Virus record (IMG/VR): IMGVR_UViG_3300049215_000481
Span: 105,281 to 169,280 of that record
Origin: a virus
DNA length: 64,000 nucleotides
Reading direction: 5' to 3' (one strand)
The notes below the pieces were generated by a model. That model did no database searches and had not been told where the DNA came from. It saw only the letters and a program-made list of their open reading frames with translations. Below are positions 40,454-48,102 of the stretch, in pieces (position 1 is the stretch's first letter; every line of letters begins with the position of its first letter). A program made the position numbers and the translations under genes.

Positions 40454-40692
40454 ATGAAGCTCAAGCAGTCGGGGCGCGGTTACGAAGCTGTCGTGACCGT
40501 GCCTGTCTTGCGTGGTGTGCCCAGCAAGTCGTAGCTTGGGACAGGGCTAGTGGTAGTTGGCGCACAGCTCCATCGCATCCCCTGTCGCACAACGGTGGGT
40601 TCTCGGTCTCGTTCGCCTCGATGGGCAGCCAGGGGTATCCGCTTACTCCCGGGACGCTGACTCCACGCCTTGGTGCCGTGACGGTCGGCTAG
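40454..40692 (+). pseudogene. Remnant of a second tail fibre gene
   Basis: ATG 40454 opens a 26-codon frame MKLKQSGRGYEAVVTVPVLR... that copies the N-terminus of the fibre upstream (MKLKQTGHGFEARVTLPIVQ), then hits TAG at 40532. In another frame, the sequence to TAG 40690 reads SHNGGFSVSFASMGSQGYPL...RLGAVTVG, which looks like a fibre C-terminus. So a paralogous fibre has been reduced to its two ends, or a fibre cassette has been swapped out here. Confidence 0.65.
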
Positions 40693-41123
40693 GCCGAGCC
40701 CCAGGGGAGCTGGGGCGCTACCACCCTCATCACAGCCCTGGCGCGCTCTCGCGCGCCGGGTTCGTTCCACATCCTGTTGAGTCCGCTCGGGTGTGGCAGC
40801 GTGACGAGCGCGATGGCCCGCCCCTCCTCCATGATGTCGACCTGGTAGAACTCTGGGCCGTTGAATGCGTCTCGAACTTTCGCACCCAGCAGTACGGCGA
40901 CGTCGAACCTGCTGTTGATGAGCTTCACGGTCTCGCGCGCCGCATTCATCGACCACTTGCCGTAGCAGAGGTTGACCTTCGCGATCTTCTCGTACTCGAC
41001 GTCTGAGAGCCCGAGGTGCTCCCGCAGGCGGTTGCCGGAGGCGTGCCGCGGGAGGTGGTAGAGCGCGAAGCGCGGGTCCTGCCCGTACGGGTTCAGCTCA
41101 CCGACGATGACCAGCTTGCTCAC
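40689..41123 (-). CDS. Uracil-DNA glycosylase-superfamily-like protein
   Basis: 144 aa from GTG 41123. IVGELNPYGQDP near the N-terminus and VTLPHPSGLNRMWNEPGARERARAVM near the C-terminus match the two active-site regions of UDG-fold proteins (GEaP- and HPS-type motifs); FDVAVLLGAKVRDAF sits between. Could excise modified bases or be a non-catalytic relative. Coupled to the gene upstream (GTGA overlap at 41120-41123). Confidence 0.75.
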   Translation of the reverse strand: MSKLVIVGELNPYGQDPRFALYHLPRHASGNRLREHLGLSDVEYEKIAKVNLCYGKWSMNAARETVKLINSRFDVAVLLGAKVRDAFNGPEFYQVDIMEEGRAIALVTLPHPSGLNRMWNEPGARERARAVMRVVAPQLPWGSA

Positions 41124-41803
41124 GAGTCCCAGCTCCTGATCTCCTCGCCCTTCACTCCGTAGTCCTCGTTGAAGACCCAGCGGTCCTTGTTCGCGTCGTC
41201 CGGGTCGATCTTCCAGAAGCCCCACGGCTTGCCGCTGATCCAGCCGACCACCCACGTCCAGGTCGGGCCGTGCAGCGTCAGCATGTGCGTGTGCCCCACC
41301 TTGTTCTCCAGCACGTCCCCTTCGTGGGTGATGACGAGCTTGTGGGTGCCGTAGAACTTCCGGAACTGCGTGTTCAGCGGGAAGTAGACGAACTCGTCGT
41401 AGCCGCCGCGGAGGATCTTCGTCTTGAAAGGCCCCGGGTGGTCGTGCGGGTCGCGGCCCTTGTCGTCCTGCGCGATGAAGTGCAGGAACCGCGGGCGGAA
41501 CCAGGGCGTCTTCGGCGTCATGAAGAAGCGCCGCAGGTAGAGGTCCTTCTTCTCGTCGAGGATGTCGAGGTGCGGCCAGAGCGCGGTGAACGCCGTCATG
41601 AACCAGTCGATCCGCACTCGGAACAGCAGGAACAGCACCGGCGAGATGCACACAGAGAGCGCCGTCTTGAGTGCTGCCCAGGCGATGCGGACAGCCCTGT
41701 ACCGGCGCCGCAGCCAGATGAAGGCGTCGATGACCAGCAGGCCGACGCCGACGCTGATGCCGAAGTAGATGATGACCGAGAGCGTTAACGCGAGGGGTTC
41801 CAT
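41120..41803 (-). CDS. Membrane-anchored cupin-like protein
   Basis: 227 aa from ATG 41803 (SD AGGAAAGGA). Two hydrophobic helices at the N-terminus (LALTLSVIIYFGISVGVGLLVIDAFIWL; ALSVCISPVLFLLF), then a cupin-like double-stranded beta-helix: DPHDHPGPFKTKILRGGYDEFVYFPL and VGHTHMLTLHGPTWTWVVGWISGKPWGFWK with metal-type histidines. Enzymatic role unknown. Confidence 0.76.
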   Translation of the reverse strand: MEPLALTLSVIIYFGISVGVGLLVIDAFIWLRRRYRAVRIAWAALKTALSVCISPVLFLLFRVRIDWFMTAFTALWPHLDILDEKKDLYLRRFFMTPKTPWFRPRFLHFIAQDDKGRDPHDHPGPFKTKILRGGYDEFVYFPLNTQFRKFYGTHKLVITHEGDVLENKVGHTHMLTLHGPTWTWVVGWISGKPWGFWKIDPDDANKDRWVFNEDYGVKGEEIRSWDS

Positions 41804-41973
41804 GTTCTTCCTTTCCTGGAAGCCCCATAGCGAATGTCTCTCTGGCCCAGTGCGTCCCACGTCGCGCTGAACGCGGCGGGCAGTCGGCGCACGGCGGCCC
41901 CTACTGCTGCGGCCACCGTCGCAGCCGCGATGACTGGCGAGGCGATCAGGAACAGCTTCTGGTCGCGCGTCAT
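41785..41973 (-). CDS. 62-aa membrane protein
   Basis: MTRDQKLFLIASPVIAAATVAAAVGAAVRRLP...: one transmembrane helix, then basic. Starts by ATGA overlap with the transglycosylase stop, so probably its lysis or export partner; its end overlaps the cupin gene and contains that gene's class A promoter. Confidence 0.66.
   Translation of the reverse strand: MTRDQKLFLIASPVIAAATVAAAVGAAVRRLPAAFSATWDALGQRDIRYGASRKGRTWNPSR
41827..41835 (-). promoter_or_regulatory. Class A motif ATTCGCTAT, minus strand
   Basis: Nine nt after the motif the minus strand reads AGGAAAGGA, the SD of the cupin gene (ATG 41803). Confidence 0.68.
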
Positions 41974-45996: not shown

Positions 45997-46047
45997 ATGT
46001 CCCTCGAAGACTTCTCGTGGTACCACGCGGCAACCTCGCGTGGCTGA
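45997..46047 (+). other. 16-codon leader frame overlapping the nucleotidyltransferase start
   Basis: MSLEDFSWYHAATSRG then TGA. Placed exactly where a class A leaderless ORF should start. The main gene is in the -1 frame from GTG 46017. It is either a leader peptide or the true N-terminus separated by a frameshift. Confidence 0.45.
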
Positions 46048-47084
46048 AGGACCGCACGATCTTCCTGACGAAGCACGGCTCGCACGCGTACGGCACGAAC
46101 ACGCCGGAGTCCGACATCGACGTCAAGGGCATCGCCATCCCGCCCAGGAAGTACTTCCTCGGCTTCCTGGAGAGGTTCGAGCAGGCCGACAAGGGCAACG
46201 CGATCGACGCGGTCATCTACAACGTCCAGAAGTTCTTCGACCTCGCGGCCGACTGCAACCCCAACATCATCGAGGTCCTCTTCACGGACCAGTCGGACTG
46301 GCTCGTCACCGACCGCCAGCGCTGGGAGTGGGACGGGTACGGCTTCGAGCGCTCGCCCTGGGGCCGCATCTACGCGGCCCGCAACGAGTTCCTCTCGCAG
46401 AACGCCAAGTACCGCTTCTCGGGCTACGCGTTCGGCCAGCTCAAGCGCATCAAGACCCACCGCGCGTGGCTCCTGAACCCGCCCAAGAAGCAGCCGTCGC
46501 GCACCGACTTCGGCCTGCCGAAGGACGAGCCCACCATCGGCAAGGAGCAGCTCGGCGTCATCGAGGCGCGCGTCCGCAAGCTGTCGGACAAGCTCGCCGG
46601 TGAGGGCTGGACCCGCGACCGCATCGACGAGAACGCCGAGGCCATCGTCACGCAGGTGGCGAGTGAGGTGAACCTCGCCTCGGAGGTCATCCCCATCATC
46701 ATCGCGGAGCGCAAGTACCACGCGGCGATGAAGCACTGGCACGGGTATCTGAAGTGGGACAGGGAGCGCAACGACAAGCGGCGCGAGCTGGAGGCGAAGT
46801 ACGGGTACGACACCAAGCACGCCATGCACCTCGTCCGCCTCATGCGGATGGCCGAGGAGATCATGCGCCGTGGTGAGGCGATCGTCCGCAGGCCCGACGC
46901 CGACGAGCTGAACGCCGTCCGCCACGGGCAGTGGAAGTTCGACGACCTGCTGCAGTGGGCGCAGGACAAGGAGAAGGCGATCCTCGCCATCAAGGGCTCG
47001 CCGTTGCCGTACGAGCCCGATCGCGCGGCTCTCGACGCCCTGCTCGTCGACATCGTCAGCGACTACCTCGCCTGCAACGGCTGA
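46017..47084 (+). CDS. RlaP-like nucleotidyltransferase
   Basis: 355 aa from GTG 46017. LAWLKDRTIFLTKHGSHAYGTNTPESDIDVKGIAIPP carries the nucleotidyltransferase site: helical hG[S]-AYG then D-x-D (SDIDVKG), as in RlaP-type proteins linked to RNA repair. The rest is helical (ERKYHAAMKHWHGYLKWDRERNDKRRELEAKYGYDTKHAMHLVRLMRMAEEIMRRG, the typical C-terminal lobe). It may repair or modify tRNA, in keeping with the tRNA/tmRNA genes next door. Start is uncertain because of the overlapping ATG frame at 45997. Confidence 0.84.
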   Translation: MVPRGNLAWLKDRTIFLTKHGSHAYGTNTPESDIDVKGIAIPPRKYFLGFLERFEQADKGNAIDAVIYNVQKFFDLAADCNPNIIEVLFTDQSDWLVTDRQRWEWDGYGFERSPWGRIYAARNEFLSQNAKYRFSGYAFGQLKRIKTHRAWLLNPPKKQPSRTDFGLPKDEPTIGKEQLGVIEARVRKLSDKLAGEGWTRDRIDENAEAIVTQVASEVNLASEVIPIIIAERKYHAAMKHWHGYLKWDRERNDKRRELEAKYGYDTKHAMHLVRLMRMAEEIMRRGEAIVRRPDADELNAVRHGQWKFDDLLQWAQDKEKAILAIKGSPLPYEPDRAALDALLVDIVSDYLACNG

Positions 47085-47175: not shown

Positions 47176-47578
47176 GGGGCCGATACGGCTTCGATTCGGG
47201 GAGAAGAAGATCGAGAGCGTGCCGTGGTTGGTCAGCAGGCCACGTAAAAAGCCGACCAAAAAAGAAAAGCGAAGAACGAAGAGTTCGACGTCCCGTTCGA
47301 CCTAATCGTCGCCAACGGGTTCGGTGTCGGCCACGGCGTTCGCGCCCTGGCCTAAAGCCGAGACCAGCGAGTAGGTGCTCCCGGTACCTCGCTGGCACAA
47401 CAACAGGGAGACCACTGGCCGCTCGGTGCGGCTCGTTCTCGGACGTAAACCGAGTGGTGGAGGGCCGGTGAAAACCGTTGTGGGGTCCCAGTCCCCTCGC
47501 CCCCGTAAGACATGGGAACGCACGTAGCGCTTGTTCGACGACGACCTGAAGACCGGGGTTCGACTCCCCGCGGCTCCA
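47176..47578 (+). ncRNA. ssrA: tmRNA (transfer-messenger RNA), one-piece
   Basis: 5' end GGGGCCGATACGGCTTCGATTC and 3' end with T-arm CGGGG TTCGACT CCCCG and acceptor CGGCTCC pairing with GGGGCCG. The core matches bacterial tmRNA: GGCCACGTAAAAAGCC pseudoknot 1, then CTAATCGTC directly before the resume codon GCC at 47311. The tag frame reads ANGFGVGHGVRALA then TAA (47353-47355). CCA is not encoded (ends ...CTCCACAAA). Rescues stalled ribosomes and tags the product for proteolysis; the C-terminal ALA fits a ClpXP signal. About 40 extra nt lie between pseudoknot 1 and the resume codon compared with E. coli. Confidence 0.94.
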
Positions 47579-47584
47579 CAAACG

Positions 47585-47656
47585 GCTCGTGTAGCTCAAT
47601 TGGACAGAGCATCGCCCCACAAGGGCGAGGTTGGGGTTCGAGTCCCTCCACGGGCC
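47585..47656 (+). tRNA. tRNA of uncertain identity (formal anticodon ACA; CAC/Val possible)
   Basis: Acceptor GCTCGTG/CACGGGC, D stem GCTC/GAGC, anticodon stem TCGCC/GGCGA with loop CCACAAG, T loop TTCGAGT. Position 33 is C, and the loop can be read as ACA (Cys) or, shifted by one, CAC (Val). Seven nt after the tmRNA, so same transcript. Confidence 0.8.
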
Positions 47657-47688
47657 CTGAGACTAATCCACAGGAGAACCCACCGCAG

Positions 47689-48102
47689 ATGCCCACGCTG
47701 AAGTACGAGAACGAGTTCACCGTCCGCGACGTCGGGGAGACCACCGGCACCAGCTACGCCGGCAAGTTCAAGGTCAAGACGCGGCTCAGCCACCGCGACC
47801 GCCTGAACATCGACAACCTGCGCCGGCAGCTCCTGGGCCCCGTGCCCGAGGGCAACATGCCCAGCGAGCGCGCCATCAACACGGCGGAGATCTTCTCGCA
47901 GCTCGGCTTTCGCATCATCGAGGCGCCGTCGTGGTGGACCTCCGCCGACAACGGCCTCGGCCTCGACGACGACAACATCGTCGGCAAGGTCTACAACGCG
48001 GCCCTCAAGGCCGAGTCCGACGAGATCAAAAAGGTCCAGGGCGACGGCGAGCAGGCCAAGACCGACCTGGAGCAGGACGCGAAGGCCACCCCCGCGGAGT
48101 AG
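47689..48102 (+). CDS. Tail-region protein, tail assembly chaperone candidate
   Basis: 137 aa from ATG 47689 (SD AGGAGA). MPTLKYENEFTVRDVGETTGTSYAGKFKVKTRLSHRDRLNIDNLRRQLLG..., then INTAEIFSQLGFRIIEAPSWW and an acidic C-terminus. Similar phage proteins precede the tape measure gene in large myoviruses. Role from position only; the following genes to 49888 belong to the same late transcript. Confidence 0.8.
   Translation: MPTLKYENEFTVRDVGETTGTSYAGKFKVKTRLSHRDRLNIDNLRRQLLGPVPEGNMPSERAINTAEIFSQLGFRIIEAPSWWTSADNGLGLDDDNIVGKVYNAALKAESDEIKKVQGDGEQAKTDLEQDAKATPAE

Follow-up and report, generated by a model that had tools for sequence, protein, structure and literature searches.

The tmRNA locus described here lies in a soil bacteriophage contig of 169,280 bases (IMG/VR record IMGVR_UViG_3300049215_000481), of which we analysed positions 105281-169280, a stretch of 64,000 nucleotides referred to below as the window. 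Coordinates are those of the window unless another sequence is named, and the locus comprises the following features:

46017..47084 (+), RlaP-family nucleotidyltransferase gene just upstream, given for context only (PF10127, E=9e-18; phrog_388)
47176..47578 (+), one-piece tmRNA gene (RF00023, ARAGORN, compensatory changes); the discriminator A is 47578, CAA comes next and CCA is not encoded
47176..47182 (+), 5' strand of the acceptor stem, GGGGCCG, forming 7 bp with 47571-47577 (CGGCUCC) and including G3.U70 (pair listing)
47223..47257 (+), pseudoknot PK1, pairing 47223-47227 with 47240-47244 and 47230-47233 with 47254-47257 (pair listing, relatives)
47258..47268 (+), A-rich segment AAAAAAGAAAA running from PK1 to the resume codon, with the A at -4 at 47265 (sequence; role of A86 from PMC2481249)
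47269..47271 (+), resume codon GCG, in the same place in three relatives
47269..47355 (+), tag frame AKNEEFDVPFDLIVANGFGVGHGVRALA with its TAA stop (sequence)
47290..47325 (+), conserved tag core VPFDLIVANGFG; all four phages share its VPFD and GFG
47554..47570 (+), T arm CGGGG UUCGACU CCCCG, with compensatory changes at three pairs
47689..48102 (+), gene for a 137-aa protein, function not assigned, a context marker that follows the tmRNA directly in each of the four long-tag phages

Using cmscan on the window, we found a match to RF00023 at 47176-47581 (+) that spans the full model (1-374) and scores 110.8 bits, where the gathering score is 47 (E=2e-42); a covariance-model scan had been proposed in the first-pass annotation as the check on the fold, and the model accepts it. 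ARAGORN likewise called a one-piece tmRNA in the window, at 47176-47579. Relatives were collected by tail sheath and their records then searched for tmRNA, which yielded L099 (record G014) and L100 (record G012), while L193 was located with the 137-aa downstream protein as bait. A gene for the same protein, of 137-140 aa, follows closely behind the tmRNA in all four phages, and the four tmRNAs form one clade (support 0.999); the sheath proteins across these phages are ~60% identical or less.

Base pairing of the acceptor stem, the T stem and the two helices of PK1 is seen in all four phages. Both-sided changes among the four phages occur at pairs 4 (G-C/C-G/U-A) and 6 of the acceptor stem, at three pairs of the T stem (C-G/U-A) and at two pairs of PK1 (C-G/A-U and U-A/A-U), and the G3.U70 alanine identity pair is invariant in 4/4. 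The PK2-PK4 region falls inside the RF00023 alignment, with low posterior there. Judged from these sequence comparisons, the tmRNA gene is real, far beyond chance, and the earlier description of a complete one-piece tmRNA with tRNA-like ends and PK1 holds. So does its attribution to a phage, as the virus contig has genes for a tail sheath, a Clp-family head maturation protease and RlaP. The RNA has the full-model match, the tRNA-like domain with G3.U70, the PK1 and the resume-codon placement that define a tmRNA, with the variant part lying in the tag. CCA is absent from the gene, as it is from most tRNA genes of the window, so that maturation would call for a CCA-adding enzyme, presumably that of the host.

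The neighbourhood of the gene was considered for functional partners. The RlaP family is predicted to restore lost nucleotides ahead of RNA ligation (PMC7824862), and we rejected its member as a partner of the tmRNA: the copy in G014 is ~5 kb off on the other strand, and none was found in a 20-kb stretch of G012. The RlaP gene used as bait returned nothing. The 137-aa protein was rejected as a partner as well, being also present in related records where a tmRNA was not found. Other genes of the window include a Clp-protease-family gene (PF00574; 37451-38245, +), probably the head maturation protease, ~10 kb upstream of the tmRNA, and an AAA ATPase gene (PF00004; 44685-45989, +) ~1.2 kb upstream, to which no role was assigned. 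At 40689-41860 (-), uracil-DNA glycosylase-like (weak) and cysteine dioxygenase-like genes lie amid plus-strand genes.

Several tRNA genes were also recorded in the window and in related phages. A tRNA-like gene at 47585-47657 (+), 6 nt past the tmRNA, was called as Cys with the anticodon ACA, which is unusual in bacteria (Rfam, 43.9 bits); it has C rather than U at position 33, its anticodon stem can close to a 5-nt loop, and it is possibly a degenerate or repurposed tRNA. tRNAs with stop-reading anticodons (tca, called SeC; tta, called Stop) are present at L105 4132-4206 (G014), L011 2808-2879 and L012 474-545 and are possible suppressor tRNAs. Dense tRNA arrays of 16-25 genes in 3-6 kb adjoin the tail sheath in related phages (L016, L006).

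The point at which the tag begins determines how it is read. In E. coli tmRNA, 11 nt separate PK1 from the resume codon. In the window, GCG at 47269 is 11 nt past PK1 and has A at -4, and GCC at 47311 (ANGFG...) is 53 nt past PK1 and has C at -4. The A at this position (A86) is nearly invariant and required, its change abolishing or shifting tagging in E. coli (PMC2481249). PK1 could serve as an anchor in 17 phage tmRNAs, and every one of these has, 22-26 nt from the anchor (25 in the window), a resume codon preceded by A at -4; 4 of the 17 have a second candidate at 18 nt. In the three relatives ARAGORN itself begins the tag at the GCG, giving AKNDEFDVPFDLVVAAGFGGGPSARAWN (L099), ANDEFDVPFDLIEANGFGGYGARALAA (L100) and AKPSLESLVPFDIVSQGFGSRLAA (L193). 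As GCG and GCC share a frame of 28 codons, AKNEEFDVPFDLIVANGFGVGHGVRALA*, the tag has 28 residues and no extra 40-nt spacer. A tag start at 47269 is thus strongly supported by the sequence.

The first-pass annotation had read the RALA* ending correctly and had misread the start. Its tag, ANGFGVGHGVRALA, is the second half of the 28-residue tag, which the relatives read from the same GCG, and the 'extra ~40 nt' that it placed before the resume codon is the first half, translated and conserved in three relatives. Resumption at GCC (or GTC) near 47308-47311, with a tag (V)ANGFGVGHGVRALA behind a ~40-nt insert, is also what ARAGORN puts out for the window copy, but is scarcely credible given the 53-nt distance, the C at a position where change harms tagging in E. 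coli (PMC2481249), the translated and conserved 'insert', and the like error that ARAGORN makes on L178 but not on its near-identical sister L176.

ARAGORN gives a wrong tag for the window, L178 and L180, and misses the tmRNA in L101, L181 and L182. Read by the PK1/A-4 rule, the tags are ANDSSYAQPVLANAA in L178, ANEPMALLAVA in L180, AEKPQIRMAA in L101, ANEPMVSLRAVA in L181 and ANLFAQLFPVNEPMLVAAAA in L182. Since the program is wrong or blind on some phage tmRNAs, tag surveys that use ARAGORN only may be off.

We next compared the long tags with one another. At this composition, 28 codons would stay open by chance with a probability of ~0.5, so openness is no evidence, and the case rests on the comparison with relatives. 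A core of VPFD..GFG..R is retained in the four phages where the tag DNA has diverged. Among the three closest (window, L099 and L100), tag indels are whole codons, and differences within EFDVPFDL fall only in the third codon position (0/0/4, 0/0/3 and 0/0/1 by position). Over the whole tag, the window and L100 differ by 2/3/11 (p=0.004), which is the one pair of six in which the third-position excess is significant. The tag DNA of L193 barely aligns, and VPFD, GFG and R are still present. On the basis of these patterns, we consider it highly probable that the tmRNA is read from GCG and that its 28-residue tag is under peptide-level selection, an assessment that leaves any binding partner aside.

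An explanation that we regard as possible, if doubtful, is that this is a long ordinary degron, in which the core is common by descent without a special role and the C-terminus alone matters. Long phage tags do exist, that of Mycobacterium phage Kumao (ADYNDADSMLQASASLLAEAVLTERGALVAA) having 31 residues, and three of the four tags discussed here end in hydrophobic ALA, ALAA or LAA. The pattern observed is nevertheless the opposite of the one expected, as it is the end that differs (RALA in the window, and RAWN, RALAA and RLAA in the relatives) and the interior that is kept among phages with sheaths as divergent as these. The RAWN end of one relative does not look like any known degron.

It is less plausible that the core was kept for RNA folding or binding, with the peptide as a by-product. 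A helix (P5) close behind the tag end or surrounding it is usual in tmRNAs; the last tag codons form a hairpin in the predicted structure, and in the window, L099 and L100 the sequence GCG-YUCG-CGC, within the tag's second half, is readable as a hairpin. Against a constraint on the RNA, core changes in the three closest phages are all in the third position and indels are whole codons, and in L193 the nucleotides changed widely while VPFD and GFG stayed. Peptide-level and RNA constraint on the tag are incompletely separated by this comparison of four sequences. Finally, a decoy or relic RNA, tying up SmpB to block trans-translation in the host and tagging nothing, is very unlikely. A phage without SmpB and the tmRNA-like-domain-only gene of phage DS6A might suggest one (a similar molecule strongly inhibits tmRNA; PMC4131195), but a decoy needs neither the whole mRNA-like domain nor the selected, terminated frame that are retained here.

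Phage tmRNAs have been found in 402 of 18,146 genomes (PMC9004378), and a list is available (PMC4131195). Like bacterial SsrA (RF00023), the RNA of the window has a tRNA-like domain with G3.U70, PK1, A at -4, a GCN codon 11 nt past PK1, a tag stop and a hydrophobic end; unlike it, the phage RNA has a tag of 28 residues as opposed to roughly 8-15, with a conserved internal motif, and has neither an encoded CCA nor an SmpB gene alongside. Sequenced phages such as the Mycobacterium phages Bxz1 and Kumao likewise have complete tmRNAs and no SmpB, and the Kumao tag is long, but their tag sequences are unrelated to that of the window. The IMG/VR phages L011, L013, L101 and L102 have related tail sheaths but tags of 9-14 residues without the VPFD..GFG core. 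Different tags, such as ANEQSFALAA, ANDNSYAAPLSAAA, ANDSSYAQPVLANAA and ANLFAQLFPVNEPMLVAAAA, were found among the other phage tmRNAs recovered as sheath relatives and by a PK1 pattern scan, the first two being examples from the short-tag IMG/VR phages. A tmRNA gene was also seen at L202 1087-1533, in the unannotated record of an uncultured phage of 484 kb (LR756508.1); the ARAGORN tag for it, GRRKPLSW, looks doubtful.

The nearest isolate found is Myxococcus phage Mx1, the only one whose tail sheath gave a match (43% identity across the full-length protein). It resembles the phage of the window in its related sheath, nearly equal genome size and possession of a tmRNA, which lies at OR576727.2 46646-47023 (L200 5962-6339), scores 117.7 bits and is not annotated in the deposited record; the paper on the Mx1 genome lists 22 genes for tRNAs, and its single mention of tmRNA is apparently the ARAGORN reference. 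In contrast to the long-tag phages, Mx1 has a 14-residue tag, VNTNVFGSQMMAAA, and its tmRNA sits in a tRNA cluster adjoining the sheath gene rather than upstream of the 137-aa gene. The Mx1 resume codon is GTC (Val), not Ala, and its tmRNA falls outside the long-tag clade. With Mx1 as the only isolate with a matching sheath, one may reasonably guess at a myxobacterial host, no more.

Searches for the tag motif elsewhere gave the following. A [DE]FDVPFD[LF] DNA pattern had 56 matches in 84,980 prokaryote genomes (one per species), none with a tmRNA by ARAGORN, and in viral contigs it turned up no additional tmRNA; because so strict a pattern would pass over variants like that of L193, the absence holds for that core only. 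A tblastn search of 50,697 phage records with the tag found nothing, a tag profile gave nothing significant against the PDB, and there was no copy of the motif outside the tags in 124 kb of the contig and the surroundings of two relatives' tmRNAs. A pattern for the 5' end of the tmRNA found nothing in viral contigs, and 20 kb compared with phage records (megablast) gave only one 39-base match, to XacN1. While phage tmRNAs and long phage tags are already known, this tag, specific to one clade and with an internal motif under selection, seems to be a new form of them.

The gene most likely encodes a working trans-translation RNA that would depend on host SmpB and add a long tag with a selected interior. 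An SmpB gene was not found in the phage contig or in eight further records, so the host's is presumably used. Host RNase P and CCA-adding enzyme would mature the phage tmRNA, host AlaRS would charge it, and host SmpB and EF-Tu would deliver it to ribosomes stalled during infection, where the stalled chain would gain Ala plus AKNEEFDVPFDLIVANGFGVGHGVRALA and then be released. Read from 47269, the tag would run AKNEEFDVPFDL...RALA, with AKNEEF first. The hydrophobic ALA end is probably still a degron for host proteases, and we would guess that the VPFD[LI][IV]..GFG core, selected as peptide, is there to be bound by a protease, an adaptor or a protein of the phage. Tentatively, the tag might then be a two-part signal, in which this core acts as a clade-specific docking motif that binds one of these and gives proteins stalled during infection a fate unlike the one that the host tag brings, leaving the C-terminal degron free to decay, as with RAWN in one relative. 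The first-pass annotation had suggested a different protease fate or continued rescue in a shut-down host; from the variable C-termini and the conserved interior, a non-standard fate is thinkable, nothing more.

Proposed roles for phage tmRNA are that it keeps the hijacked machinery working or tags host proteins for recycling (PMC9004378). Conservation of the core in three related phages suggests that the tag was probably retained for some purpose. Because sequence is enough to discern selection inside the tag, and not at its degron end, the question of why phages carry a tmRNA may become testable.
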